A stretch of 64,000 nucleotides of DNA from Gemmatimonadaceae bacterium (GTDB lineage Bacteria; Gemmatimonadota; Gemmatimonadetes; Gemmatimonadales; Gemmatimonadaceae): positions 186,001-250,000 of the forward strand of contig JADLCY010000011.1 of assembly GCA_020846935.1 (NCBI GenBank), in the 5' to 3' direction. The position numbers and the translations under genes were made by a program. Under the pieces are notes generated by a model. That model worked only from the letters and a program-made list of their open reading frames with translations. It was not told where the DNA came from and did not search any database. Below are positions 26,122-41,068 of the stretch, piece after piece; position 1 is the first letter of the stretch; each line of letters starts with the position of its first letter.

Positions 26122-27504
26122 ATGGCGAAGCAGCAATCGATCGATCCCGCGACGGGGAACGTCGCCTTCGAAATCGAAGAGCACTCGCCGGCGGAGGTGG
26201 AGGGCCGCGTGGCGCTCGCCGCGTCCGCAGCGGTGGCATGGGCGGCGAGCGCCGTCAACGACCGCGCCGAGCTGCTGTTCCGTGCCGCCGACCTGCTCGA
26301 GGCGGAACGCGAGGACTTCGGGCGCCTCATGACCCAGGAGATGGGCAAGACGCTCGCGTCGGCGATCGCCGAGGCGGAGAAGTGCGCCGCCGCCTGTCGC
26401 TACTATGCTGACAACGCCGCGCGCTTCCTTGATCCGGAGCTGGTCGTCGATCACGGATCGGAGCATGGGGAGGTGTGCTACCAGCCGTTAGGCACCGTGC
26501 TCGCCGTGATGCCCTGGAACTTTCCGTTCTGGCAGGTGATCCGCTTCGCGGCGCCGGCAATCGCCGCCGGCAACACGGCGCTGCTCAAGCACGCCTCCAA
26601 CGTTCCGCGCTCGGCGATCGCGCTCGAAGACCTCTTTCGGCGCGCGGGGGCGCCGCCTGGTGTGTTCCAGTCCTTGCTGATCCCCGCGCGCCGCGTCGCC
26701 GACCTCATCGCCGACCCACGGGTCCACGCCGTGACGCTCACGGGCAGCGAACCGGCGGGTCGTTCGGTGGCCGAGGCCGCGGGGCGACATCTCAAGAAGG
26801 CGGTGCTCGAACTCGGTGGCAGCGATCCGTTCATCGTCTGCGAGAGTGCCGACCTCGATCGCGCGGCCGCGGTCGCCGTGACGGCGCGATGCATCAACAA
26901 CGGGCAGTCGTGCATCGCGGCCAAACGCTTCATCGTCGTTGCGCCCGTGTTTGATCGCTTCCTCGATCGCTTCACCGCCCTGATGAGCACCCTCAGGGTC
27001 GGCGATCCCATGGACCCGGACACGGACCTCGGGCCGCTGGCCACACCCGCCATCCGCGATGAGCTCGACGCGCAGGTCACGGCCAGCCTCGACGCGGGCG
27101 CCCGGCGGACGCTGGGATCAGGCCCGATACCGGGGCGCGGCAACTACTACTCGCCGACGATCCTCGTGGACGTTCCGCGGAGCGCGCCGGCGTGGAGCGA
27201 AGAGCTGTTCGGTCCGGTGGCACTCTTCCATCGTGTGGCGTCGCTCGACGCGGCGATCGAGCTGGCCAACGCGACGCGGTTCGGACTCGGCGCCAGCGTC
27301 TGGACCGCAAAGATCGCCGATGCCCGGCGCGCGGAGCTCGGACTCGATTGCGGGACCGTGTTCGTGAACGGCATGGTCGCGTCGGACCCGCGCTTCCCGT
27401 TTGGGGGCGTCAAGGCGTCGGGGTTTGGCCGCGAGCTCGGGGTGTGGGGCCTGCGGGAGTTCGTCAACGTGAAGACGGTGCGCCGCTTCGGCCTGGAGCG
27501 TTAG
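26122..27504 (+). CDS. Succinate-semialdehyde-type aldehyde dehydrogenase
   Basis: NAD(P)-dependent aldehyde dehydrogenase of 460 residues, the shorter length typical of the Sad/GabD1 subgroup of succinate-semialdehyde dehydrogenases. Motifs: PWNFPFWQ (Asn of the oxyanion hole), TGSEPAGRSV, LELGGSDPFI (general-base Glu) and NNGQSCIAAKRFI (nucleophilic Cys). Substrate is inferred from length and motif style only. The ATG at 26122 is chosen over an upstream continuation that overlaps the AIM24 gene. It contains one in-frame octamer (26486-26493, Leu TTA) and ends in another (27499-27506), where its TAG overlaps the kinase gene's TAA. Confidence 0.9.
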   Translation: MAKQQSIDPATGNVAFEIEEHSPAEVEGRVALAASAAVAWAASAVNDRAELLFRAADLLEAEREDFGRLMTQEMGKTLASAIAEAEKCAAACRYYADNAARFLDPELVVDHGSEHGEVCYQPLGTVLAVMPWNFPFWQVIRFAAPAIAAGNTALLKHASNVPRSAIALEDLFRRAGAPPGVFQSLLIPARRVADLIADPRVHAVTLTGSEPAGRSVAEAAGRHLKKAVLELGGSDPFIVCESADLDRAAAVAVTARCINNGQSCIAAKRFIVVAPVFDRFLDRFTALMSTLRVGDPMDPDTDLGPLATPAIRDELDAQVTASLDAGARRTLGSGPIPGRGNYYSPTILVDVPRSAPAWSEELFGPVALFHRVASLDAAIELANATRFGLGASVWTAKIADARRAELGLDCGTVFVNGMVASDPRFPFGGVKASGFGRELGVWGLREFVNVKTVRRFGLER

Positions 27505-27506
27505 GC
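27499..27506 (+). repeat. CGTTAGGC octamer carrying two opposed stop codons
   Basis: Second case where one octamer ends two convergent genes: TAG of the aldehyde dehydrogenase on the plus strand and TAA of the kinase on the minus strand. Confidence 0.85.
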
Positions 27507-29288
27507 AGGCTCGTCCCTGGCCGGCGTGTCGCCGCGCCCGAGGACGCGACCCCACCACGTGTCCTGGCGGCGCGCCTCGCGCTCGCGCTCGGCCACCAGC
27601 TCGCGCCACGCGTTGCGCATCGCGTCGCCGTCCGCGAAGCGCGTGGCCGGGTCCGGTGCGAGCCCCTTCTGCAGGAACGCAGCGATCGGCTCGGGCAGCA
27701 TCGACGTGTCGGTGCGGGCGCCCAGCTGCTGCGCCAGCAGGCCCTGCGGATCCGGCGCCTCGAACGGCGGGCGACCGGTGAGCGCGTAGTAGATGATTGC
27801 CGCCGCTGCGAAACAATCGACCGCTGGCCCCTGGGCTTCTCCCAGGATCTGCTCCGGCGCGGCAAACGCAGGCGTTCCCGTGACGCCGGCCCGCTCGCCC
27901 TCGGCCCGAGCGATACCGAAATCGGCGATCCGCCACCGCCGGTAGCGATCGATCAGGATGTTCTCCGGCTTGAGGTCGCGGTGTATGATGCCGACCGCGT
28001 GCGCGGCGGCGAGCGCGTCGAGCACCCGATCGATCTGGCTCACGATGCTCTCGAACGGCCGCGCCCCGGCGCGCGCGATGAGGTCGGCGACGGAACCACC
28101 CTCGGCAAGTTCCATCGTGTACCACGATACTTCGCCGCGCGCATCCCAGTCGAAGATGGGAATGATCGCCGGGTGCGCGAGTTGCGCCGCCAATCGCGCT
28201 TCGCGTCGGAACCGCGCCACCGCGTGTTCGTCTTCGGCCACCGCGGGGTGCAACATCTTGAGCGCCACTTCACGCTCCAGGGACAGATCGCGCACGCGCC
28301 AGACGCTCCCGAACGTGCCGCGGCCCAGGAAGCCCAGCACATCGTAATCATCACCGACGGCCCAGCGCAGGCGACCCTCTTCAGTGAGCGCCGTTGGAAT
28401 CGACGGCATCGAGCTGAACCCGGCGCGCGAGCCGGAGACGCGCTCGAGGGCGCGCAGCATGAACGACAACGAGCGATGCCGCTGGTCCGGGTCGCGCCGC
28501 AGCGCGACATCGAGGATCGCCGCGATCGACTGCGGCACCTCGGGGCGCAGCAACTGGAGCGGGGGGATCTCGCCACGCGGCGGCAGCTCGCCGGTGATCG
28601 CGAAGAACAGCGACGCCGCCAGCTGCCACTGGTCAGACGCCAGCGTCGGTCGCCACTCGCCGGCACTCCACTCCGGCGCCATCGGCGTCCAGCGCGAGTC
28701 CGGCGCGAGCCCTTCCGGGATCTCGCCACACGGGAGTGCCCACTGCCATCCGAGCAACCAGATCCGGCCCGACGGCGCCGACCAGATCACCTCGGGCGAC
28801 ACCGCGCCGTGCGCCGAGCCCTGGTCATGGACGTACACCAGCAGCGAACCAACGACGCGCAGCAGCCTGACCGTCTCGGGAATGTCCATCGCCCCCGTGC
28901 GACGAACACGGGCCCCCGCCGCTTCTGCCGCCAACCATCGTCGCAGGTATCCGGGCCCACGCTGACTATGGGGATGTGGCGCCCAGTAGTGATACGTGGT
29001 GGGGATCGATGGATGGTTGCGATGGGCCAGCGCCCGGGCCTCGGCGGCGAGCCAGTTCAGGTGTGTCGGATCCGGGGCCGACACCAGCGAGAGCGAACGC
29101 CCCAGGGCGTCGCGGACTTCCTGGTAGTGTCGGTGCTCCATCGACACGCCTTCGGTGCCCCACGCCCAGTCCGGTGGGAGCTGCCAGCTCCGCAGGTGCT
29201 CCGGCAACTCGTGCGACACGCGGTTGGGCGCGTCACCCAGGGTCTCGGAAGGCACGGAGCGTACGTGATCTGCGGGTGTGGGCGGCAT
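27501..29288 (-). CDS. Pseudokinase-Ser/Thr kinase fusion
   Basis: This 595-residue cytoplasmic protein has two kinase-like halves. The C-terminal half (about 315-575) is an intact Hanks-type kinase: glycine loop LGRGTFGSV (321-329), K344 in VALK, HRDLKPEN (436-443), DFG (456-458) and APE (477-479). The N-terminal half (about 45-285) follows the same layout with catalytic residues lost. LSLVS stands where VALK should be, AHGAVSPEVI (159-168) replaces HRDLKPEN, LLG (178-180) replaces DFG, yet MAPEW (203-207) and SDQWQLAASLFFAITGELPP survive. This is a pseudokinase coupled to an active kinase. No membrane segment or PASTA domain is present. Targets are unknown. Confidence 0.9.
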   Translation of the reverse strand: MPPTPADHVRSVPSETLGDAPNRVSHELPEHLRSWQLPPDWAWGTEGVSMEHRHYQEVRDALGRSLSLVSAPDPTHLNWLAAEARALAHRNHPSIPTTYHYWAPHPHSQRGPGYLRRWLAAEAAGARVRRTGAMDIPETVRLLRVVGSLLVYVHDQGSAHGAVSPEVIWSAPSGRIWLLGWQWALPCGEIPEGLAPDSRWTPMAPEWSAGEWRPTLASDQWQLAASLFFAITGELPPRGEIPPLQLLRPEVPQSIAAILDVALRRDPDQRHRSLSFMLRALERVSGSRAGFSSMPSIPTALTEEGRLRWAVGDDYDVLGFLGRGTFGSVWRVRDLSLEREVALKMLHPAVAEDEHAVARFRREARLAAQLAHPAIIPIFDWDARGEVSWYTMELAEGGSVADLIARAGARPFESIVSQIDRVLDALAAAHAVGIIHRDLKPENILIDRYRRWRIADFGIARAEGERAGVTGTPAFAAPEQILGEAQGPAVDCFAAAAIIYYALTGRPPFEAPDPQGLLAQQLGARTDTSMLPEPIAAFLQKGLAPDPATRFADGDAMRNAWRELVAEREREARRQDTWWGRVLGRGDTPARDEPA

Positions 29289-29300
29289 GCGTGAAAGCTG

Positions 29301-32300
29301 CTATGTCGGCGTCGCCGCAACCAGCGCGAGCGACGCCGTCGCTCCGCGCGGATCTCGTCGCTCGAGCCGGATACGGCCACCCCACGATTCGACCAGTCGT
29401 TTGCTGATCGCGAGGCCGAGTCCACTTCCGCTGGTGCGCGTGGAGAACTGCGGCTCGAACAATCGCGCCACGACGTCATCCGCGATACCGTCACCATCGT
29501 CCTCGACGGTCACGTGCACCTGGTCATTCTCGCCTCGCGCACGCACGGTCACCTGGCGTGCGTGCGCGAGGCGTGCGTTCTCCAGCAGGTTGAGGAGCAC
29601 TTCGCGCAGTTCGCCCTCGCGGGACAGCGCGTGAAGCGAGCCAGGCACGTCGGCGGACCACGTGATCGCACTGTCCCCCATCCGCTCGAGATCCACGACA
29701 TCGCGCACCACGCGTGCGACGTCGACCGGCTCGGCGGTCGCCGCATCATCGGGGCGCAGCCCAAAACGCGCAAATGATCGTGCGATCTCGTCGAGCCGGT
29801 CGATTTCCTCCAGGATGCGGGCGACGTTGCGGCCAAGAATGGTGCTGAAGTCGCTGCGCCCATCGGCGTGGGCGCGTTTGACGTGCTGCACGCCAAGACG
29901 GATGGGCGTGAGCGGATTCTTGATCTCGTGCGCGACCTGTCGCGCCATCTCGCCCCACGCAAACACGCGCTGCGCCCGCGCGAGGTCGGTCACGTCGTCG
30001 AGCGTGAGGACGGCGCCCCCGTCGCCTCGGGACAGTCGCGTGAGGCGACCCCGGAGCTGGCGGCCGCGCCACCGCAGCTCAAATGCGTCGTCTTCGAGGT
30101 CACCGGCGAGGAAGGCCGCACAGCGTTCGGCGATGCCGGGGAGGCGTTCGACGCGGTCCCGGGGATGCAGCGTCCCAAGCAGTCGTTCGGCCTGCGGGTT
30201 GGCCAGGAGCACCGCGCCGTGTCGATCCAGCGCCACCACACCACTGGCGACGTCCCGGAGCACCGCTTCGGTTCGGCGGCGCGCGGTATCGAGTGCCTGG
30301 CGCGAGTCGCTCAGGTCAACGGCCATGCGCCGAAACGTCTCGAACACGTGTGTGAACTCGCTTGGTGGCCGCGGGCCTAACGCGGGCAGCTCGCGGGCGC
30401 CGGCCGCAACGTCGCCCGCCGCGCGTCGCAGCGCCGCGACGGGCCGCGCAAAGGCACGCGCGGCGAGCCCGCTCAGCCAGAGCGCCACCAGGGTACCGAT
30501 CGCCATGGACACGGCGAGCAGCGCCACGAGATCGCGCTGCTGCCGCTCCAAAGTCAGTTCGCTCCGACGCGCCGGAGCCGCCAGGACGGAGCCATCGGCG
30601 AGCACGCGGTAGCCGAGCAGCGTCGGCTCCCTCCCCACGGTGATGCGGCGGTTCGCCGTCTCCTCCGCGCCCCACAACACCTCCTGCGCCGCGACCGGAT
30701 CGAGCAGGAGGCCGAGCGGCGCCAGTCGCGCAAAGAGCACGTCGCTCGTGGCCACCAGCTCGCCCTGCCGGTACTGGAAGAGCGGCGCGTCGAGCCGCCC
30801 GGCTTCGGTGCCCAGGTCGAGCGCGCCGCGCGCGCTCACGGCGCGCAGCGTCTCCTGCACCAGGAGCGACCGGGAGAGCGCGTCCTCGGCACCAAGACGG
30901 TTGTACGTCCAGATGGCGAAGGCGATCGACGGGAGGGCAAAGGCACCAAAGATCGCAACCGTCAGTCGAGCGCGGTACGAACGCCGGTATCGCGCGGCAC
31001 GCGCACGCAGCCAACGCGTCAGTGCGCGATCGGACAGCGCGACGAGCATCCAGAGCAGGCCGAACGCCGCGACGTCGAGGATGACCAGGAGCGTCCCGCG
31101 GACCAGGAGCGCATCGAGCGAGCGCAGTTCGACCTCGGCGTGTGCATGCAGGTTGCCAAGCACGGCCTGCATCTGCCAGTCGCCGCGCAGGGCGTCATCG
31201 CGGCGGATCCAGCGCTCCACGTGCGCGGCCGGGGGCGCAGTGGCCGGACCGAGTGTGAGTCGATACGGCGGCTCCGTCGCTGTCGGCGACTCCACGCCGA
31301 GGAGCGCAGCAAAGGGGTCGTCAGCAATGAGCCGCGTGCGCGGCGCAACGGCGATCGTGATTGCATGGGCCGAGTCGAGCGGCGCCCCGACCACGAGCTG
31401 CACACCCTGCGTCGACCCGAACTCCCGCGAGATCACGGTGCCCGTGGAGTCGGCGTAACGCGCGAGTTCACGCTCACCCTCGGCACGGCGTTCGAGGCGC
31501 GCGAGGTTGAGCACCGCATCGGGCACGATCGATGCCCGCGGTGACCACACCGCCAGCTGAACGGGATTGGCGGCGGCAGCGAGCCCGGAACCCACGTACA
31601 ACTTCAACAGGTCCGCCGACGTCCGCGGCGGCGGACGCTTCTGCACGTCGTCGAGCAGTCGCGTCAGGAGCACACGTACCTCGGGATCCGCCGCGCCAAG
31701 GCCAGCGGCGTCTCGCTCCGCCAGGTCCACCCGCTTGCGCGTGATGGACCCCCACACGAGTGTCGTCGCCCCGCAGGCCGCCAGGAACGCCACGTGCAAC
31801 GGGAGCGTGCGTGAGCGTCGCGTGATCACGAGCGCGCTCATCGCCGCGATCCAGAGCACGGGGTACCATGACGGAAATCGACCCGGCGCCTCCAGCACGA
31901 CCGGCGCGAGCACCGCCGCGGCGGCACCGAGCAGCGATCCCCAGGCCGCGCCGTTAGGCAGGCCGCGGCGACGCCACGCGCTGGTTGCCCACACGCCGAG
32001 CAGCAAGGTGCCGGCCGCAACGAGGAAGAGCGCCACTTCCCACGCCACCCACAGGGTCGCCGGTGCACCGCGTGGAGGCAGTTCGATCCCGCGCGCGAGG
32101 TAGCGCAGGAGGTATGGAGCGCCCACGACGCAGGAGGCCGCGAGCGGCAGCGCCACCCACACCGGAGGACGCCAGCGGCGGTCGCGGGCGAAGGCGATCA
32201 CGACCAGGCAGGCGAGCGCGCCCGTCATCGCCAGCGCGCCGATGCTTGCCGTCCAGGGGCCGCCGGACGCGGAGAAGTAGTAGCCCGAGTTGAACGCAGC

Positions 32301-33263
32301 GGTGACGTTCGACAAGCTGCTCAGAGGCGCCGCCCCGATCGTGGCCCCAACGCACAGCAGCGCCACGAGACGTCCGACGAGCCCAGACGCGCCCCGCCAG
32401 ACAATCCCCAGGCCAACGACGAGGATCGCAAGCGCCAGGGTCAGCACGATCACGCGATACCGCTCCTCGAGCGCGAGCCGCCGCTCCGGCTCCGGCGTGG
32501 GAACCGGGCGCAGCCAGAGGTCGGGGCGTCCGTCGACGCTGAGCGTGGCCGCGCTGTCGAGTGGCGTCCGGGACGCGTCGATGCGCTCGAGGCCGAGCCG
32601 ATCGGCCATGACGCGGAGCCAGGGCCGCGCCAGCTGATCGGCCGGCGCGAGTGCGTAAAGAGTGCGCATCGCGATCGCCTCGCGACCGTCCTGCGAGGCC
32701 CGGGCGTACACCACACCGTAGAACTCGTTATGTGCGATGCCGACCGGGAGTGCCATGTCGGCCAGCGGCAGTCGCACCAGGCCGGCCCACGCTTCGGGCA
32801 CCCCGGCGCGCAGAATCACGCCCGCAGCCTCACCACCCGCAGCCGAAGGCAGGACCGGCTCCAGCAACGTCACGGACGTCCCCTGCCCCGTTACCGGGAG
32901 CCCCGCCAGGGCGCGGGCGGCGCGCTGAAGTTCATCCGTCAGCTCAGCGCCGCTCCGTTGAAGGACCTCGAGCGCAACGCCTGGCACGCTCGCCCCCTCG
33001 CTCGAAGATGGCCGACCGAGCGCGCGCCACGCCGCCACACAGGTCAGGATCATCGCAGCCTGGCTCGCGATGAGCGCCAGCCAGGCCGCGCGCCGCGAAC
33101 GGACCAGCGCCACGGTGGCGATCGTGGCGGCGGTCGTCGTGACGAGATAAGGTACGCTCCACGTGCGCAGGAACAGCGCACTCGTCACGCACGCGACACC
33201 GGCGAGCAGGAGGCCGGCACCCTCGCGACGCCCCACGCCGCCCGAAAGAGATGGCTGAATCAC
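29301..33263 (-). CDS. Very large NtrY-like membrane sensor histidine kinase
   Basis: This 1,320-residue sensor is about twice the length of a typical NtrY. The N-terminal ~500 residues hold many membrane segments (about ten or more, such as LLLAGVACVTSALFL and IVLTLALAILVVGLGIVW) with an extracytoplasmic stretch near 100-270. A second membrane pair around 770-830 brackets another external region. Then come a HAMP segment, a PAS-like domain (VLRDVASGVVALDRHGAVLLANPQAERLLG), the phospho-acceptor AHEIKNPLTPIRLGVQHV and a HATPase_c domain (NLLENARLAHA, DDGDGIADD, GSGLGLAISKRLVESWGG). The start is taken as the GTG at 33263 with AGGGG eight bases upstream. It overlaps the divergent creatininase start. 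An NtrC-type regulator exists at 2874-4238. It holds octamers at 30375 and 31952. Confidence 0.9.
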   Translation of the reverse strand: MIQPSLSGGVGRREGAGLLLAGVACVTSALFLRTWSVPYLVTTTAATIATVALVRSRRAAWLALIASQAAMILTCVAAWRALGRPSSSEGASVPGVALEVLQRSGAELTDELQRAARALAGLPVTGQGTSVTLLEPVLPSAAGGEAAGVILRAGVPEAWAGLVRLPLADMALPVGIAHNEFYGVVYARASQDGREAIAMRTLYALAPADQLARPWLRVMADRLGLERIDASRTPLDSAATLSVDGRPDLWLRPVPTPEPERRLALEERYRVIVLTLALAILVVGLGIVWRGASGLVGRLVALLCVGATIGAAPLSSLSNVTAAFNSGYYFSASGGPWTASIGALAMTGALACLVVIAFARDRRWRPPVWVALPLAASCVVGAPYLLRYLARGIELPPRGAPATLWVAWEVALFLVAAGTLLLGVWATSAWRRRGLPNGAAWGSLLGAAAAVLAPVVLEAPGRFPSWYPVLWIAAMSALVITRRSRTLPLHVAFLAACGATTLVWGSITRKRVDLAERDAAGLGAADPEVRVLLTRLLDDVQKRPPPRTSADLLKLYVGSGLAAAANPVQLAVWSPRASIVPDAVLNLARLERRAEGERELARYADSTGTVISREFGSTQGVQLVVGAPLDSAHAITIAVAPRTRLIADDPFAALLGVESPTATEPPYRLTLGPATAPPAAHVERWIRRDDALRGDWQMQAVLGNLHAHAEVELRSLDALLVRGTLLVILDVAAFGLLWMLVALSDRALTRWLRARAARYRRSYRARLTVAIFGAFALPSIAFAIWTYNRLGAEDALSRSLLVQETLRAVSARGALDLGTEAGRLDAPLFQYRQGELVATSDVLFARLAPLGLLLDPVAAQEVLWGAEETANRRITVGREPTLLGYRVLADGSVLAAPARRSELTLERQQRDLVALLAVSMAIGTLVALWLSGLAARAFARPVAALRRAAGDVAAGARELPALGPRPPSEFTHVFETFRRMAVDLSDSRQALDTARRRTEAVLRDVASGVVALDRHGAVLLANPQAERLLGTLHPRDRVERLPGIAERCAAFLAGDLEDDAFELRWRGRQLRGRLTRLSRGDGGAVLTLDDVTDLARAQRVFAWGEMARQVAHEIKNPLTPIRLGVQHVKRAHADGRSDFSTILGRNVARILEEIDRLDEIARSFARFGLRPDDAATAEPVDVARVVRDVVDLERMGDSAITWSADVPGSLHALSREGELREVLLNLLENARLAHARQVTVRARGENDQVHVTVEDDGDGIADDVVARLFEPQFSTRTSGSGLGLAISKRLVESWGGRIRLERRDPRGATASLALVAATPT

Positions 33264-33991
33264 GACCGCAGCCCCTGCGCCTGAAGGAGCTGTCGCCGCC
33301 CGCAATCGCCGATGCGCTGGCGCGCGACCCCCGACTCCTGCTGCCCGTCGGAACGTGCGAGTCGCATGGCCCTCACCTGCCGATCGGCTGCGATACGATC
33401 ATCATCGACCGGCTCGTCGACGACCTCTCGGCGGAACTCCAGATCCTTCGGGCACCGACCCTGGAGTACGGGGTCAACGTGCCGCACGAGCGGCCGGCGC
33501 CGGGCGGAGCCGGACTGCGCCGGAAGTCGCTGCTGCGGACCCTCAACGACCTCATCGATGCGTGGGAAGCCGGGGGCGTGAAGGAGTTCGTGCTCGTGAC
33601 CGCCAACGGCCATGACGCACACGTCGAAGCCCTCTCGACGGTAATCACCACCGCCGCTCGCGTGCAGGTCATCGACGTCCTCGGAATCGTCATGCCCGAG
33701 GCGACCGACAGCCCGTACGGCGCGTTGCATGGAGACGAAATCGACACCTCGCTGATGCTGTTCCTGCATCCCGATCTGGTGGACATGGGTCGCGCCGAGG
33801 ACTTCCCGCTGCCGTCACGCCGGGGGCTCCGTAGACTTGGACGGGCGAACCTGAGGGTGATGCGAGCCTCCGCGGGATCGATGGGCAATCCGTCGGCGGC
33901 GTCGGCGGCGAAAGGTGAGGCTATGTACAAGCGTATCAAGAGGTTGATTCGCGACAAGGTGCTGCTTGCGCCCCAGGACGACGAGGACTAG
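33251..33991 (+). CDS. Creatininase-family amidohydrolase
   Basis: This 246-residue member of the creatininase/MftE-like metal-dependent family hydrolyses cyclic or linear amides; the true substrate of most members is unknown. The metal-site motifs are present: LLPVGTCESHGPHLPIGCDTII (Glu and His ligands), LVTANGHDAHVEAL (the NGHD/NGHG region) and HGDEIDTSLMLFL. The ATG at 33251 starts MAESRPQPLRLKELSPPAIADAL, family-like in content although the ribosome site is poor. The start region overlaps that of the divergent sensor kinase by 13 bases. Confidence 0.88.
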   Translation: MAESRPQPLRLKELSPPAIADALARDPRLLLPVGTCESHGPHLPIGCDTIIIDRLVDDLSAELQILRAPTLEYGVNVPHERPAPGGAGLRRKSLLRTLNDLIDAWEAGGVKEFVLVTANGHDAHVEALSTVITTAARVQVIDVLGIVMPEATDSPYGALHGDEIDTSLMLFLHPDLVDMGRAEDFPLPSRRGLRRLGRANLRVMRASAGSMGNPSAASAAKGEAMYKRIKRLIRDKVLLAPQDDED

Positions 33992-34046
33992 GGTGACATA
34001 TCGGGTTCAGAACGGGTCCCTTCCACTGGTGTACCATCCCGGTGCC

Positions 34047-34727
34047 ATGACGCGACTATCCCTGCTCCTCCTCGGTACGGTCCTGGCCGCTCCACTCTCA
34101 GCCCAAGGCGTGCGTTCGCTGGACCGAGGATCGTTCACGATCACGGTGAACGGCCAACGTGTGGGTCGCGAAGACTTCACGATCAGTGGGACGCCCGGTC
34201 CGAACGGAATGGAGTACCTCTCTCGGGCGACGGTGGTCTACGGCGATCGCCGCATGAACCCGTCGCTGTGGTCTGACTCCACCGGAGCGCCGTCGCGCTA
34301 CACCGTGGAGGTCAAGGGCACGAGCGGGGCTCATGAGCGCTGGATGGGCCGGATCGCTCGGGGGCGAGTCAGCGCGCAGATCGACAACGCCCGCGGCCCC
34401 TCCGAGCGCGAGTACGTGGTGGCGGACGGTGCGGTGCTTCTCGATGACGACGTGTTTCACCAGTATTTCTTCCTTGCCCAGCGCAGCGGGGCGAGTACTT
34501 CGATCGTGATCCCGCGTCGCAACGCCCAGCTCGTCCTGCGGGCCACGGATGGAGGAAGCGACCGGGTAACAATCGGCGCCACGGCGCTCGACGCCCGCCA
34601 CATCGTCTTCACTGAACCGACCGGCGCGACGCGCGACGTGTGGGTGGACGCCAAGGGACGCGTGCTGAAGGTGGCAATTCCATCGCGGAATCTCGTCGCG
34701 CTGCGCGACGACCCGCCCTCGGCATAA
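34047..34727 (+). CDS. Exported protein of unknown function
   Basis: This 226-residue protein has a clear signal peptide (MTRLSLLLLGTVLAAPLSAQG, cleavage after SAQ). The mature part is beta-strand-rich: FTITVNGQRVGREDFTISG, YLSRATVVYGD, YTVEVKGTSGAHERWMGRIARGRVSAQID and a late DARHIVFTEPTGATRDVWVDAKGRVLKVAIPSR that resembles lipid-binding LolA-type or DUF3108-type barrels; the resemblance is by eye. It begins 55 bases after the creatininase gene and is followed by a strong terminator, so it ends a transcript. Confidence 0.75.
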   Translation: MTRLSLLLLGTVLAAPLSAQGVRSLDRGSFTITVNGQRVGREDFTISGTPGPNGMEYLSRATVVYGDRRMNPSLWSDSTGAPSRYTVEVKGTSGAHERWMGRIARGRVSAQIDNARGPSEREYVVADGAVLLDDDVFHQYFFLAQRSGASTSIVIPRRNAQLVLRATDGGSDRVTIGATALDARHIVFTEPTGATRDVWVDAKGRVLKVAIPSRNLVALRDDPPSA

Positions 34728-34743
34728 CGCGCTCGGTCCCACA

Positions 34744-34769
34744 CGCCCCGCGCACGGACGGGGCGTTTT
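34744..34769 (+). terminator. Intrinsic terminator after the exported protein gene
   Basis: Perfect 7-base stem CGCCCCG (34744-34750) with CGGGGCG (34759-34765), an 8-base loop, then TTTT. It separates the exported-protein gene from the TolC operon. Confidence 0.85.
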
Positions 34770-34797
34770 GGGTCTTTCGGTCGTGAAACCGACCCAG

Positions 34798-34816
34798 CGG
34801 ACGTCCCGTACGTCCG
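34798..34816 (+). promoter_or_regulatory. Inverted repeat upstream of the TolC gene
   Basis: CGGACGT (34798-34804), a 5-base spacer, then ACGTCCG (34810-34816), lying 29 bases before the TolC start codon. It is not followed by T residues, so it looks more like a protein-binding site or a leader hairpin than a terminator. No regulator gene is adjacent. Confidence 0.35.
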
Positions 34817-34844
34817 GCAGCCTTCATCTTCGCCATATCACGTC

Positions 34845-36308
34845 ATGCGACGACTCGTCCTCCTGTCCCTTGCCGCGCTTCCTTCGCTCCTTGGCGCCCA
34901 GGCTGCGGGACCGGTGCTCACCCTCGAAGAAGCGGTGCAGCTCGCCATCAAGAACAACCCGACCTACCTGCAGAGCACGTCCGGACGCTCGCGGGCCGGC
35001 GCGGCAGTGCGTAGCGCGTACGGCAACCTGCTCCCAAGCGTTCGCACGTCATTCGGATCCTCGTATCGCGAGGGGCGTGCGCAGTTCTTCGCCGGGCAGG
35101 CGTTCGGCTCCACGTCCGACGTGTTGTCTTCGAGTGGCGACGTCTCGATCGACGCGCAATACAGCCGGGCCTCGTTCCTTGGCGTCAGGCAGCAGCGCGC
35201 CAACCTCGATGCCGCCGAGGCCGAGGTCACCAGCGCGGCCGCCACACTCCGCACCAACGTCATCACCCAGTACCTCAACGCACTGCAGGCCGAGGCACGG
35301 GCCGCCTTTCAGGACACGCTCCTGGTGAGCACCCAGGCGCAACTCGAGCTGGCCCGCGCCCGACAAGCCGTGGGAGCAGCCACCACGCTCGATGTTCGGC
35401 GGGCCGAAGTGCAGGTCGGCCAGCAACAGGTTGCCAGACTGCGGGAGCAGAACACCGCCGAGCTGGAAAAGTTGCGGCTCTTCCAGCAGATGGGCGTGGA
35501 GCAGCCCGCCGACGTGCGGTTGACGACGGCCTTCGGCGTCGAGGAGCCTACGGTGCAGCTGCAGCAGGTGCTCGACCTCGCCCGCCGCGCGAACCCGGCC
35601 CTGGTCGCGCTCCAGTCGCGCCAGCGCTCGGCCGACGTACAGGTCTCATCGGCGCGTTCGGCGTACCTCCCGACGCTTTCGCTCTCCACGGGCCTCAGTG
35701 GCTTCTCGCAGCAGCTCATGGACATCGACGGGCAGATCAACGATCGCAAGGCCGGCATTCTGGGCAGTCGCGCCTCGTGCTTCTCGCAGGACTCGCTGCG
35801 GCGCGGGGCCGGGCTGTCGAGCATCGCCGCCCAGTGCAACGGCATCGCCTTCACCCCGGCCATCGAGGACGCGATCCGCAGTGGCAACTCCCAGTGGCCG
35901 CTCAAGTTCACGCGCAGCCCGTTGAACTTTGCGGTGCAGGTCTCGCTGCCTCTCTTTGACGGTTTCCAGCGCGAGCAGCGCGTGCAGGAGGCCCAGGCGT
36001 CGAGCAACGACGCCCGGTATCGCCTGCGCGAGCAGGAACTGCGCCTCACGGCCGACGTCACATCGGCCTATCGGACACTCACGACGGCGTATCGGACCGT
36101 TCGCCTGCAGGAACAGAACTCGGTGACGGCGCGCGAAGCGCTGGCCCTGGCGCAGGAGCGCTTTCGCGTCGGCGCCAACACGTTCGTTGATGTGACCCAG
36201 GCACGCAGCGATTACGAGCGCGCCGAGACCGATCGCATCAACGCGATCTACGACTTTCACAAGGCCTTCGCCGCCCTCGAGGGCGCGGTCGGCCGTCCAC
36301 TTCGCTGA
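34845..36308 (+). CDS. TolC-family outer-membrane efflux channel
   Basis: Outer-membrane factor of a tripartite exporter, 487 residues. A signal peptide (MRRLVLLSLAALPSLLGAQ) is followed by two structural repeats of the OEP type. The first starts LTLEEAVQLAIKNNPTYLQS, and the second around 225-245 starts VLDLARRANPALVALQSRQR. Long coiled helices rich in Ala, Gln and Arg (DAAEAEVTSAAATLRTNVITQYLNAL) form the periplasmic tunnel. The adaptor gene begins 11 bases after the stop, and the MacB-like ATPase and two permeases follow, so the four proteins should build one envelope-spanning pump. Confidence 0.93.
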   Translation: MRRLVLLSLAALPSLLGAQAAGPVLTLEEAVQLAIKNNPTYLQSTSGRSRAGAAVRSAYGNLLPSVRTSFGSSYREGRAQFFAGQAFGSTSDVLSSSGDVSIDAQYSRASFLGVRQQRANLDAAEAEVTSAAATLRTNVITQYLNALQAEARAAFQDTLLVSTQAQLELARARQAVGAATTLDVRRAEVQVGQQQVARLREQNTAELEKLRLFQQMGVEQPADVRLTTAFGVEEPTVQLQQVLDLARRANPALVALQSRQRSADVQVSSARSAYLPTLSLSTGLSGFSQQLMDIDGQINDRKAGILGSRASCFSQDSLRRGAGLSSIAAQCNGIAFTPAIEDAIRSGNSQWPLKFTRSPLNFAVQVSLPLFDGFQREQRVQEAQASSNDARYRLREQELRLTADVTSAYRTLTTAYRTVRLQEQNSVTAREALALAQERFRVGANTFVDVTQARSDYERAETDRINAIYDFHKAFAALEGAVGRPLR

Positions 36309-36319
36309 GCGAGGAATCC

Positions 36320-37600
36320 ATGAGCAAGGGTATGCGTTGGTCCCTGATCGGCCTGGGCGTCGTGGCCGTGGCCGCGGTGGCAGCCACGACGGCGGCCAAG
36401 CGAGGGGCCAAGGGAACCGAGGTTCGGATGGAGACCGTCGAGCCTCGCGATCTCGTCGCAGCCGTGACGGCCTCGGGCCAGGTCCAGCCGCGCACCAAAG
36501 TGGACGTCGCTGCCGACATTTCCGGGCGCATCGTCCGCCTGTCCGTCAAAGAAGGACAGCTGGTGAAAAAAGGCCAGTTCCTGCTCGAGATCGACCCGCA
36601 GGAATACGTGGCGGCCGTTCAGCGCAGTGAGGCCGCACTCTCCTCGTCACGCGCACAGGCGGCGCAGGCCAGGGCCAATCACCTCCAGGCGCAGCGGAAC
36701 TACGACCGCAGCATGGAGATCCGCAAGACAAACGCGCAGCTCGTCGCCGAAGAACAGATCGAACAGCTCAAGACCACGCTGGAGGTGAACCTCGCCCTGT
36801 ACGAGTCCGCGCAGCACAACGTCGATCAGTCCGTGGCCGCCCTGCGCGACGCCAGGAGCAAGCTGTCGAAGACCACGATCCTCGCCCCGATGAGTGGCCG
36901 CATCACGCGCCTCGTCGTCGAAGAGGGTGAAACGGCGGTGCCCGGCACATTCAACAAGGACGCCGCCACGCTGCTCACCATCTCCGACATGAGCGTGCTC
37001 GAGACCAAGGTGAAGGTCGACGAGACCGACGTGTCGCGGATCAGCGTGGGCGACTCGGCCGTCGTGCAGATCGACGCCTTCCCGGACACCACGTTCCTGG
37101 GCAAGGTGGTCCAGATCTCCAACAGCTCGGTCAAGGCGGCGGCAGCGGGCGCACAGACGGACCAGGCCATCGACTACGAAGTCACCATCCAGCTGCTCAA
37201 TCCGCCGCCTGATACCCGACCGGACTTCTCGACCACCGCCAAGGTGGTCACGGACGTTCGCGACAAGGTGCTCTCGATTCCGATCATCGCCCTTACCGTG
37301 AGGGAAAACGAAAGCGTCGGGAGCGGAGATTCCGCAGTCACCGTGGGCCGCGCCCCCCAGAAGGAAGTGGGCAAGCGGGACGTCGAAGGCGTGTTTGTCG
37401 TCGCGGCGGACAACAAGGTGACCTTCCGGCCCGTAAAGGTAGGGATTGCCGGAGATCGGTATTTCGAGGTGATTTCCGGTCTCAGCCAGGGCGACAAGAT
37501 CGTGGGTGGCACCTATCAGGCCATCCGCGAGCTGAAGGACGGCGACCTGGTCCGCCAGATGAAGGAAGAAAAGAAGCCCACACCCGGATCGAAATCGTGA
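36320..37600 (+). CDS. MacA-like periplasmic adaptor protein
   Basis: Membrane-fusion protein of 426 residues linking the inner-membrane MacB-type transporter to TolC. The N-terminal anchor is at about 6-26 ([20 protein letters not shown]). Then come the lipoyl-like half-motif ([46 protein letters not shown]), a coiled-coil hairpin (about 100-180), the returning half-motif [27 protein letters not shown], and a beta-barrel/membrane-proximal part ending [23 protein letters not shown]. The GTG of the ATPase gene overlaps its stop (GTGA), indicating coupled translation. Confidence 0.93.
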
Positions 37601-38421
37601 GCGAACACTTCGGAACAGGGAACCCGCTGACCACCACTGGCGAGCACGCCATGAGCACCACGGCCGAACGAAAGGCCGTGGTCGCGCAACCCGGGGCGAC
37701 GCCCGACAGGAACTGGGTCATCGTCACCCGCGGTCTCAAGCGCGAGTACGACATGGGCGGCGAAATCGTGCGCGCGCTCCGCGGCGTGGACCTCGCGATC
37801 CGACGCAACGAATACGTCGCCATCATGGGCCCCTCGGGCTCCGGAAAGTCCACGCTGATGAACCTCGTGGGTTGCCTCGACACACCGACCGCTGGTGAGT
37901 ACTGGCTCAACGGCATGCTCGTGTCGAAAATGAGCGACGACGAGCTGGCACGCGTCCGGAACAAGGAAATCGGGTTCGTTTTCCAGACGTTCAACCTGCT
38001 GCCGCGTGCCACCGCCCTGCACAACGTGGAGCTTCCGCTGGTCTACGCTGGCATCTCGGCCGACGAGCGCAAGCGCAAGGCGAAGCACGCGCTGGAAAAG
38101 GTGCAGCTGGAGCACCGGATGACGCACAAGCCCAACGAGTTGTCCGGTGGACAGCGCCAGCGCGTGGCGATCGCTCGCGCGCTGGTCAATGACCCATCGA
38201 TCCTCCTTGCCGACGAACCGACCGGCAACCTTGATTCGCAGACTTCGACGGAGATCATGAAGGTGTTCGAGGGGCTCGCGAGCGGCGGGCAGACGGTGAT
38301 CATGGTGACCCACGAGCCCGACATCGCGTCGCATGCGCGACGCATCGTCGTGCTGCGCGACGGCCTCATCGCCAGCGACGACCGTCGTCAGGCATTCAAG
38401 GAGCAGCACGGTATCGGTTGA
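37597..38421 (+). CDS. MacB/LolD-type ABC transporter ATPase
   Basis: Cytoplasmic ATPase of 274 residues. Walker A is GPSGSGKST, the Q-loop region is [21 protein letters not shown], the signature is [15 protein letters not shown], Walker B is [15 protein letters not shown] and the switch His is in MVTHEPD. The GTG at 37597 overlaps the adaptor stop; an ATG at 37651 ([10 protein letters not shown]) would give the conserved core and is an alternative. A strong hairpin terminator follows 36 bases after its stop and before the permease genes, an unusual position. Confidence 0.93.
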
Positions 38422-38457
38422 CCGGACGTTGGGCGAGACCGTCAGCGTCGCGGCACC

Positions 38458-38489
38458 GGGGGGACAGTTCAGGCGACTGTCCCCCCTTT
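38458..38489 (+). terminator. Perfect hairpin terminator inside the efflux operon
   Basis: An 11-base perfect stem, GGGGGGACAGT (38458-38468) with ACTGTCCCCCC (38476-38486), a 7-base loop and TTT at 38487-38489. It stands between the ATPase and the first permease, so it either ends transcription with read-through, or the permeases have their own promoter downstream (38490-38581). Confidence 0.82.
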
Positions 38490-38581
38490 CTGCTCTCTCA
38501 GGCTATTTTTCGGATGACCTAAATCAAGCTTCGGCGTTCTCTTCCCCACTCGCCTCGCGCTCACCGCTCATTCGCTGAAAA

Positions 38582-39823
38582 GTGCTTCCCCTCGACGTCG
38601 TCGCCACCGCGTTCGCGCAGATCCGGTCCGCCAAGTTGCGGTCGTTCTTCACGCTGCTCGGGATCATCGTATCGGTGACGTTTCTGGTGGCCGTGCTCGC
38701 GATCATCCAGGGCCTCAACGCGTACGTGAAGGAGAACGTCGCGGACGCCATGATCGGCGCAAATGCGTTCCAGGTCCGCCGCAGCCCGATCAACGTCTCG
38801 GGTTTTGTCGACGAAGAGGTCGAGCGGATGGCACGGCGCCCCCTGATCACCCGCACGGATGCCGAGGCCGTGCGCGCCGCCTTCCCCGACGCGGAGGCCG
38901 TGGCAATCCAGTCGGGCTGGCCGACGCCGTCAGCAGACGTCACCTGGCGCAATCGCACGGTCGGTGATGCCCTCGTCTTCGGGGTCACGGCGCCGTTCCA
39001 GGTGGTGCAGGACTATCGGCTCGAGCAGGGGCGCGCGCTGTCGGACATCGACGTCACGCAGCGTCGGACCGTGGTCGTCCTGGGCGCCGAACTTGCGGAG
39101 AAGCTGTTCGAGACCGTCGATCCGGTGGGGCAACAGGTGCGACTCCGCGGCGAGCTGTTCACGGTGATCGGCGTGAACGCGCGCAAGGGTCGCGTCCTTG
39201 GTCAGTCGTTCGACGGATACGTGCTCCTGCCGTTCACGCGCTTCGAGATGATGTACGGCAAGCGGGCCTCGACCACGGTGTCGATCAAGATGCGCGCACC
39301 CGAGGATGTGGCGACGGCCATGGGCCGCGCCGAGGAGGCGATGCGTGTCGCTCGCGGCCTCCGCCCCGGGCAACCGAACAACTTCTCGATCGAGACGTCC
39401 GACGCGCTGGTGAACTTCTGGAAGACGCTCACGCAACTGCTGTTCGCGATCGTGCCGGCCATTGTATCCATCGGCATCGTGGTGGGCGGGATCGTGATCA
39501 TGAACATCATGCTGATGTCGGTCACGGAGCGGACGCACGAGATCGGGATCCGGAAGGCGCTTGGCGCCCGGGCGCGCGACATCGAACGGCAGTTCCTGGC
39601 CGAGGCGGTGGCGCTGGCCTCGCTTGGGGGGTTGCTGGGCGTGATGGTCGGGTGGCTGCTCGCCGCGACGGTGGCGGCGGCGTCGCCGCTCCCGACGCGC
39701 GTCACGTGGTGGTCGGTGGCGATCGCGCTTTCCCTTGGCGCCGGAGTCGGCATCGTGTTCGGCGTGTATCCCGCGCGACGGGCCGCGCGCCTCGATCCGA
39801 TCGCCGCGATGCGGGCCGAATAG
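38582..39823 (+). CDS. MacB-like ABC permease 1
   Basis: Inner-membrane permease of 413 residues with the MacB topology. One N-terminal membrane helix (SFFTLLGIIVSVTFLVAVLAIIQG) precedes a large periplasmic domain (about 50-280), and three C-terminal helices form the FtsX core, including IVVGGIVIMNIMLMSVTERTHEIGIRKALGARARDI. The ATPase is encoded separately upstream. The start is a GTG at 38582 (LPLDVVATAFAQIRSAKLRSFF) with a weak ribosome site. It is followed directly by the second permease (TAG then ATG, no gap), so the pair likely works as a heterodimer. Confidence 0.9.
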   Translation: MLPLDVVATAFAQIRSAKLRSFFTLLGIIVSVTFLVAVLAIIQGLNAYVKENVADAMIGANAFQVRRSPINVSGFVDEEVERMARRPLITRTDAEAVRAAFPDAEAVAIQSGWPTPSADVTWRNRTVGDALVFGVTAPFQVVQDYRLEQGRALSDIDVTQRRTVVVLGAELAEKLFETVDPVGQQVRLRGELFTVIGVNARKGRVLGQSFDGYVLLPFTRFEMMYGKRASTTVSIKMRAPEDVATAMGRAEEAMRVARGLRPGQPNNFSIETSDALVNFWKTLTQLLFAIVPAIVSIGIVVGGIVIMNIMLMSVTERTHEIGIRKALGARARDIERQFLAEAVALASLGGLLGVMVGWLLAATVAAASPLPTRVTWWSVAIALSLGAGVGIVFGVYPARRAARLDPIAAMRAE

Positions 39824-41068
39824 ATGCGACTCGCCGATCAGATTCGCGAAAACGTGGGCATCGCGATCGACACGCTGCGCACGTCCAAGCTGCGCTCGGC
39901 GCTCACGGTACTGGGGGTCGTCATCGGCATCAGCACCGTGATGGCGATCGCGACACTGATCAACGGCGTGCAGCAGCAGATCGTCACCACGATCCAGACC
40001 GCGGGCCCGACGACGTTCTACGTGATGAAGGTCTACTCCGAAACGCCGCTGAACCCCGACAACCTGCCGGCGTGGGTTCGCATTCGGCCCGACCTGCATG
40101 GCGACGAAGCCGAGCGCTTTTCCCAGCTGCCGGAGATCGGCTATTCGTCACTGTGGGGCATCAAGGTGGCGCGCGTGGAGTACAACGGGCTGCGCGTGCA
40201 GCCCAACCGCATCTACGGCGCGGACTCGCGATTCACGGAGATCATCGGTGGCGAGCTGGCGAGTGGCCGGTGGTTCACGCGACAGGAGGTGGCCGGCGGG
40301 CGCAACGTCTGCGTACTCGCCGAGTCCGTGGTGCAGACGCTCTTTGGCCGCGAGAACCCGATTGGCAGAACCGTGCAGCTCGGCGGTCGCCCGGCGACCG
40401 TGATCGGGGTGTACGCCCCGCTCACCAACATCTTCGATCCGCCGGGTGTCGAGACCGCGGCGATCGTCCCGTTCCGCTGGCTCGATCAGCGCTTCGACAT
40501 CAACCGCACGCAGGAACAGTTCATCGTGATCAAGCCGCGGGCGGGGGTCACGGTCGACGCGGCACAGGACGCCGTGCGGATCGCCCTGCGGGAGATGCGC
40601 GGCCTGCGCCCCTCGGCGCGCGACAACTTCGACTTCATGACGCAGGGGCAGATCCTGCAGGTGTTCAACAACCTCACCGGGGCCTTCTTTCTGGTGATGG
40701 TCGCCCTGTCGTCGGTCGGTCTGCTGGTCGGCGGCATCGGGGTGATGGCGATCATGATGGTGTCGGTGACGAGCCGGACGCGCGAGATCGGCGTGCGCAA
40801 GGCGTTAGGCGCCTCGCGTCGCGACATCATGATGCAGTTCCTCATCGAGGCGGCGACGCTCACCGGCATTGGTGGCATCCTGGGCATCATCACCGGCCTG
40901 CTGATCGGCAAGGGCATCTCGATGGCCGTCAGCGTCTCGGCGTCGACGCCGCTCAGCTACACGGTGGTGGCGGTGCTCCTCTCCCTCGGGATCGGCGTGA
41001 CGTTTGGCCTGGTGCCGGCGCGGCGCGCGGCCCGCATGGATCCCGTGGAAGCGCTGCGCTACGAGTGA
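39824..41068 (+). CDS. MacB-like ABC permease 2
   Basis: Second permease, 414 residues, with the same architecture as the preceding gene: N-terminal helix SALTVLGVVIGISTVMAIATLIN, a periplasmic domain of ~230 residues, then the FtsX core with VGGIGVMAIMMVSVTSRTREIGVRKALGASRRDI. Two different permeases served by one ATPase suggests a heterodimeric MacB-type pump; the cargo is unknown. The gene starts on the base after the first permease's stop. It carries a CGTTAGGC octamer (40803-40810) inside the conserved KALGA motif, coded with a TTA. Confidence 0.92.
   Translation: MRLADQIRENVGIAIDTLRTSKLRSALTVLGVVIGISTVMAIATLINGVQQQIVTTIQTAGPTTFYVMKVYSETPLNPDNLPAWVRIRPDLHGDEAERFSQLPEIGYSSLWGIKVARVEYNGLRVQPNRIYGADSRFTEIIGGELASGRWFTRQEVAGGRNVCVLAESVVQTLFGRENPIGRTVQLGGRPATVIGVYAPLTNIFDPPGVETAAIVPFRWLDQRFDINRTQEQFIVIKPRAGVTVDAAQDAVRIALREMRGLRPSARDNFDFMTQGQILQVFNNLTGAFFLVMVALSSVGLLVGGIGVMAIMMVSVTSRTREIGVRKALGASRRDIMMQFLIEAATLTGIGGILGIITGLLIGKGISMAVSVSASTPLSYTVVAVLLSLGIGVTFGLVPARRAARMDPVEALRYE

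Follow-up and report, generated by a model that had tools for sequence, protein, structure and literature searches.

A pseudokinase–kinase tandem protein conserved across the bacterial order Gemmatimonadales

What can a dead kinase domain do for an intact kinase joined to it in one bacterial chain? The question is raised by a gene in the window, a 64,000-nucleotide stretch of contig JADLCY010000011.1 from a soil bacterium of the Gemmatimonadaceae, whose protein carries a degraded kinase copy (domain 1) followed by an intact kinase (domain 2). The best-known pseudokinase–kinase tandems are eukaryotic (JAKs, GCN2); in these proteins the live domain is under the control of the dead one. We favour the reading, with a probability of roughly 0.6, that domain 1 is a built-in allosteric regulator or docking partner of the adjoining Ser/Thr kinase in cytosolic signalling.

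Two kinase domains in one soluble protein

The open reading frame at 27501-29288, pointed out in a preliminary description of this DNA, was confirmed and lies on the minus strand. Its features are:

27501..29288, minus strand: pseudokinase–kinase tandem gene, 595 amino acids, soluble product, ATG at 29288
29157..29204, minus strand: pre-domain motif LPxHLxxWQLPPDWxWG, residues 29-44, near-invariant in Gemmatimonadaceae orthologues and not typical of generic kinases
28434..29171, minus strand: domain 1, predicted pseudokinase, residues 40-285 (AlphaFold2 model; matches to PknB and PknA, below)
29109..29114, minus strand: site of a 13-residue deletion of the glycine-loop hairpin, between residues ~59 and 60, from alignment with the sister-family type
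29082..29084, minus strand: beta3 Lys position, Val69 (V in 57/59 orthologues, I in 2/59)
28803..28811, minus strand: HRD position, H160-G161-A162, from the orthologue alignment
28743..28751, minus strand: DFG position, G180-W181-Q182, W181 being invariant in Gemmatimonadaceae orthologues
27609..28355, minus strand: domain 2, intact Ser/Thr kinase, residues 312-560 (Pfam PF00069, 1.2e-43; VIA-align Z 31.6 to PknB)
27975..27983, minus strand: domain 2 HRD, residues 436-438
27915..27923, minus strand: domain 2 DFG, residues 456-458

Domain 1 of the window protein has no match in Pfam. This miss was rejected as a sign of non-homology, since profile, fold and sister-family sequences all indicate a kinase. 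As a single sequence the domain finds PknA among Protein Data Bank (PDB) chains at E 1.2e-11, and a profile of its orthologues (63 relatives) finds PknA at E 7e-30; the tandem relatives from two sister families give a Pfam Pkinase match in each half of the protein. AlphaFold2, run on the domain-1 alignment, gave a model with a predicted local distance difference test score (pLDDT) of 90.5, a predicted template modelling score (pTM) of 0.88 and the strand and helix order of a kinase. The top Foldseek match of this model was PknB (E 2.7e-13), on which VIA-align superposed 242 residues at 2.4 Å (Z 26.7). Structure prediction of the N-terminal half had been proposed in the preliminary description as its own test, and a kinase fold, not an unrelated one, is what emerged; the kinase motifs quoted there can likewise all be located in the translation (VHDQGSAHGAVSPEVI at residues 153-168, IWLLGW at 176-181, MAPEW at 203-207 and ASDQWQLAASLFFAITG at 217-233). 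The homology of domain 1 to kinases is far beyond chance. Some 40 residues lie ahead of the domain, the first ~21 with pLDDT below 50. No transmembrane (TM) helix was found in the tandem protein, and Pfam recognised no further domain in it beyond kinase.

Residue counts refer to 59 full-length Gemmatimonadaceae sequences, the window protein included. By its motifs domain 2 is a bacterial Ser/Thr kinase of textbook type, putatively active, in line with the full C-terminal kinase described earlier. It keeps GxGxxG (as GRGTFG), K344, E363, HRDLKPEN and DFG, and its catalytic residues are all present in 59/59 orthologues.

Domain 1 has indeed lost the three catalytic residues first noted as missing from it: the VALK lysine is V69, the HRD aspartate A162 and the DFG aspartate G180. 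Among the orthologues the HRD-Asp position holds Ala in 48, Gly in 7 and Asp in 4, and the DFG-Asp position Gly in 50, Glu in 6 and Asn, Ala or Gln in the rest, while the DFG-Phe position is Trp in every sequence. At most one of the three catalytic residues is found in any one domain 1. Judged by sequence, the domain is catalytically dead in all 59. Residues that keep the fold are invariant (alphaC Glu83, APE Glu206, alphaF Asp219, alphaI Arg270), and so are His160 and several arginines. The invariance of His160, E83 and these arginines, along with precedents among bacterial pseudokinases (PMC12599244), might suggest an unconventional catalytic activity, as in SelO or SidJ; this we consider highly improbable, however, as the Gemmatimonadaceae domain 1 retains neither a metal-binding Asp nor an ATP-binding loop.

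The same residues bear on a second proposal, that the remodelled pocket of domain 1 detects a small molecule or nucleotide and relays this signal to domain 2. The tandem protein has no TM or other sensor domain, which fits, and domain 1 of the sister families keeps the DFG Asp with Arg for the Lys (VALR), compatible with ATP binding as predicted for pseudokinase families in a review (PMC12599244). In the Gemmatimonadaceae, however, the hairpin is deleted, Val replaces the beta3 Lys, the DFG Asp is gone and the invariant Trp occupies the DFG-Phe position; in MviN, bulky pocket aromatics are thought to block ATP (PMC12599244). Because the glycine loop and every nucleotide-binding residue are gone, nucleotide sensing by the Gemmatimonadaceae domain 1 is unlikely, and we rate the pocket-sensor proposal as a whole improbable; sensing of a protein is possible. 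The preliminary description had cast the pseudokinase as the sensor for want of an extracellular one. In that form the argument is not supported: the gene directly upstream, discussed below, encodes a histidine kinase with 12 TM helices, a ready membrane sensor.

Conservation and descent of the tandem

We scanned the phylum with a domain-1 profile (249 genomes, at least 85% complete; counts made by hand from the resulting table). Complete tandem-type domains scored 176-451 bits and partial ones at contig ends down to 148, as against about 136 or less for other kinases. Tandem-type domain 1 is present in 81/88 Gemmatimonadaceae and in 49/57 genomes from the two sister families within that order; the profile found it in 0/104 Gemmatimonadota genomes outside the order. 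No tandem was found outside Gemmatimonadota by a pattern-based contig scan of limited sensitivity. One tandem per genome is the rule, in the Gemmatimonadaceae as in both sister families. Domain 1 was never encountered on its own: its fusion to domain 2 is constant, and the two are retained together.

Two observations concern copy number. The window genome holds ~30 Ser/Thr kinase domains, only one of which has a dead domain-1 partner. Genus g27 has a second, diverged tandem copy, ~46% identical and 700 amino acids long, situated away from the histidine kinase (loci L088 4882-6981 and L089 5028-7118).

In the sister families domain 1 has decayed in another way, with VALR or VSLR for VAIK, xRR for HRD and DLR for DFG, and with the glycine-loop region kept. 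Because these families carry a differently degraded pseudokinase, the dead domain appears ancestral to the order. In a tree, the domain-1 sequences of the two types are set off together by one branch (97*), as are the domain-2 sequences (82), with other kinases separate; the simplest account is therefore a tandem inherited as a single unit from an ancestor. In the Gemmatimonadaceae, domain 1 sits on a long branch (1.54) and has since diverged a great deal. As to whether domain 1 came from internal duplication or from fusion of another kinase, neither origin is favoured by the tree, which splits domain 1, domain 2 and other kinases and has this long domain-1 branch.

Could domain 1 be merely a decaying, functionless duplicate? 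It does diverge faster than domain 2, with a mean identity of 59.6% versus 67.9%, and its branch is long. Its ratio of nonsynonymous to synonymous substitution (dN/dS), however, is 0.028-0.065 in close pairs, just as low a range as domain 2 shows in those pairs (0.031-0.058); strong purifying selection thus acts on the dead domain. The frame is open in all orthologues, the fold residues are invariant and the domain is retained throughout the order. We regard the decay reading as already refuted by these selection and conservation data, and give it next to no weight.

Gene neighbours and the control of domain 2

The genes around the tandem offer candidate partners:

29301..33305, minus strand: upstream gene for an NtrY-like sensor histidine kinase, 1334 amino acids, ~12 TM helices, weak PAS match, intact H-box HEIKNP
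33251..41065, plus strand: creatininase, DUF6134, TolC-like, MacA-like, MacB ATPase and two MacB-like permeases, divergent, their order beside the histidine kinase kept across the class
26122..27504, plus strand: aldehyde dehydrogenase, convergent, overlapping the stop region of the tandem, linkage inconsistent

The histidine kinase gene ends 12 bp ahead of the tandem on the same strand, and its product is a putative membrane partner. A hand count took in the Gemmatimonadaceae tandem loci for which 1 kb or more of upstream sequence is available. The histidine kinase lies directly upstream, abutting or overlapping the tandem, in 46/55; in 5/55 it is convergent (adjoining the tandem or past the aldehyde dehydrogenase) and in 4/55 it is missing from there. 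This operon makes the histidine kinase the likeliest input for the tandem in the Gemmatimonadaceae. An obligate histidine kinase–tandem pair is rejected, as the histidine kinase occurs class-wide, also in genomes that lack the tandem. It is itself older, being found across the class and divergent to the creatininase/TolC/MacA/MacB group.

The giant multi-TM NtrY-like histidine kinase and the divergent creatininase/TolC/MacA/MacB-type export operon are a class-wide neighbour pair (window 29301-41065; loci L110-L113 and L115-L118), and the histidine kinase has no adjacent response regulator. The Gemmatimonadaceae genomes G006, G039, G061, G080 (genus g7), G034 and G057 (g34), 81-100% complete, are possible natural deletion strains: the tandem was not found in them and the histidine kinase is retained.

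Sister families have other neighbours. In one group a gene for a GAF-GGDEF diguanylate cyclase lies directly upstream of the tandem (L075, L092, L093, L094, L105, L106); in another, a gene for an FHA-FHA-trypsin-like protease is divergent to it (L091 2635-4719; L073, L074, L097, L098, L101, L104). FHA domains read phosphothreonine, and this makes the FHA-protease a natural candidate effector in that group. A search of the genome that contains the window turned up no close relative of this protein; eight FHA domains lie at other sites in that genome.

Partner genes that vary by lineage would suit a mainly docking or scaffolding domain 1, as in MviN or EssB/YukC, that recruits a substrate or tethers the kinase to the histidine kinase or some other partner and leaves the intrinsic activity of domain 2 unchanged. 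Scaffolding is how experimentally studied bacterial pseudokinases work (PMC12599244). Domain 1 moreover is conserved at several positions where domain 2 varies (W43, G63, R110-G-P, R144, Q220, E234, R279), in addition to the conserved pre-domain motif. A pure scaffold, however, would need no fusion to a kinase, whereas here the two domains are without exception fused and retained together. We consider the scaffold unlikely on balance, though a serious contender.

Allosteric control of domain 2 by domain 1 is plausible. If domain 1 acts as the built-in regulator that we favour, its N-lobe and hydrophobic, Trp-bearing pocket would hold a fixed conformation that requires no nucleotide. The domain could then serve domain 2 as intramolecular allosteric partner and docking platform, replacing the second subunit of a PknB-type kinase–kinase activating dimer. 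An upstream sensor protein would alter the contact between the domains; input would come from the multi-TM histidine kinase in the Gemmatimonadaceae, and the GAF-GGDEF and FHA-protease neighbours would take part in the sister families. We infer the regulation of domain 2 by domain 1, the direction in which control runs and the role of the histidine kinase as input.

The dimer analogy has some footing in the N-lobe. Its most conserved part is the segment beside the deleted glycine loop, D60-x-L62-G-R64 (D60-A-L62-G-R64 here), in which R64 is invariant. By hand count along the PknB numbering, we take D60-A-L62-G-R64 to align with L33/R35 (the LxR segment) of PknB. Solved structures matched by domain 1 include, by title, the PknB mutants L33D and D76A, which probe the back-to-back dimer. 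Such a dimer of PknB-type kinases has been described (PMC6333020). Domain 1 may possibly stand in for its second subunit.

Several points weigh against control along these lines. The PknB interface is incompletely kept, PknB D76 presumably corresponding to His100 in domain 1. The full-length tandem model has a pTM of 0.69, so the arrangement of the domains is only moderately confident. The pairing with the histidine kinase is not obligatory: sister families, and Gemmatimonadaceae without a tandem, still have that kinase, and the sister-family tandem persists with none beside it.

Relation to known kinases

The label JAK-like, under which the protein was first described, is apt in part. As in JAK1-3 and TYK2 (JH2-JH1), the protein is cytosolic and has a dead domain immediately N-terminal to a live one, with a membrane sensor as its likely partner. 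The label does not extend to the kinase itself: JH1 is a tyrosine kinase, whereas the window kinase is of Ser/Thr type (HRDLKPEN; best structural matches PknB and PknA). FERM and SH2 domains precede the JAK pseudokinase and Pfam finds neither here, the likely partner here is a histidine kinase, and finds of the tandem are confined to Gemmatimonadales. The JAK2 pseudokinase mainly restrains its kinase domain (PMC5770812). In full-length structure comparison no solved tandem such as TYK2 JH2-JH1 appeared among the matches listed, the list being filled with single kinase domains. GCN2, the eIF2alpha kinase, is also soluble and has a pseudokinase followed by a Ser/Thr kinase; the Gcn2 pseudokinase contacts and activates the kinase domain that follows it (PMC4014428). 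By kinase type GCN2 is the nearer analogue. Unlike GCN2, however, the 595-residue window protein has no RWD, HisRS-like, ribosome-binding or C-terminal domains by Pfam; it belongs to another lineage, and its regulation is something we infer. Plant tandem kinase proteins such as Pm24 also join kinase and pseudokinase in one chain, but in the order kinase–pseudokinase and in plant immunity (PMC6997164).

Among bacterial kinases, the mycobacterial Hanks-type PknB and PknA are the closest solved relatives of both domains. They differ in having a single kinase domain and a TM helix, with extracellular PASTA domains also in PknB; the tandem has two kinase domains and no TM helix. It is not a member of the PASTA kinases (NF033483), scoring 221 bits versus a curated score of 450, with neither TM nor PASTA. 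Having a kinase fold that has lost the VAIK Lys, HRD Asp and DFG Asp, domain 1 is a Hanks-type bacterial pseudokinase of the general kind. Like it, MviN (ActPs3), GLW, CP1, DYD, DLHK and ActPs1/2 are Hanks-type and have lost all or most catalytic motifs, but their motifs differ and no tandem with an active kinase is described for any of them. ActPs3 pseudokinases are chiefly actinobacterial, and the one characterised is a domain of the transmembrane protein MviN (PMC12599244), whereas the window protein has no MviN domain or TM and is from Gemmatimonadota. GLW pseudokinases have GLW for HRD, followed by a TM region (PMC12599244); domain 1 has HGA at HRD, GW at the DFG site and no TM. That review neither uses the word 'tandem' nor names Gemmatimonadota (PMC12599244). 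No bacterial pseudokinase–kinase tandem was found in the literature searched, mainly openly available journal articles, and such a tandem is apparently undescribed.

A role in anti-phage defence (PglW, MAD6, PD-T4-6) was considered and rejected, scores being far under the curated cut-offs (MAD6 169 of 460 bits, PglW 86 of 990 bits) or arising on the generic kinase domain, as with the best PADLOC match (PD-T4-6, 276 bits, strongest there). No defence genes were seen among the neighbours examined.

A wider proposal would make the tandem an order-wide bacterial pseudokinase–kinase switch, independent of JAK and GCN2, in which the dead domain exerts allosteric control over the live kinase and serves as its coupling to exchangeable inputs (histidine kinase; GAF-GGDEF or FHA-protease). 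A single operon would thereby join two-component to Ser/Thr phospho-signalling. We put this forward tentatively, with the odds somewhat against it. The conserved bacterial tandem is a candidate counterpart of the eukaryotic kinases that have a controlling dead twin. If it is one, the design evolved at least once more, with two ways of dying in sister lineages and with natural swaps of operon partner. A tandem so small and soluble would make the control of a kinase by a dead neighbouring domain testable, and the operon suggests that histidine-kinase and Ser/Thr-kinase signalling are physically linked.

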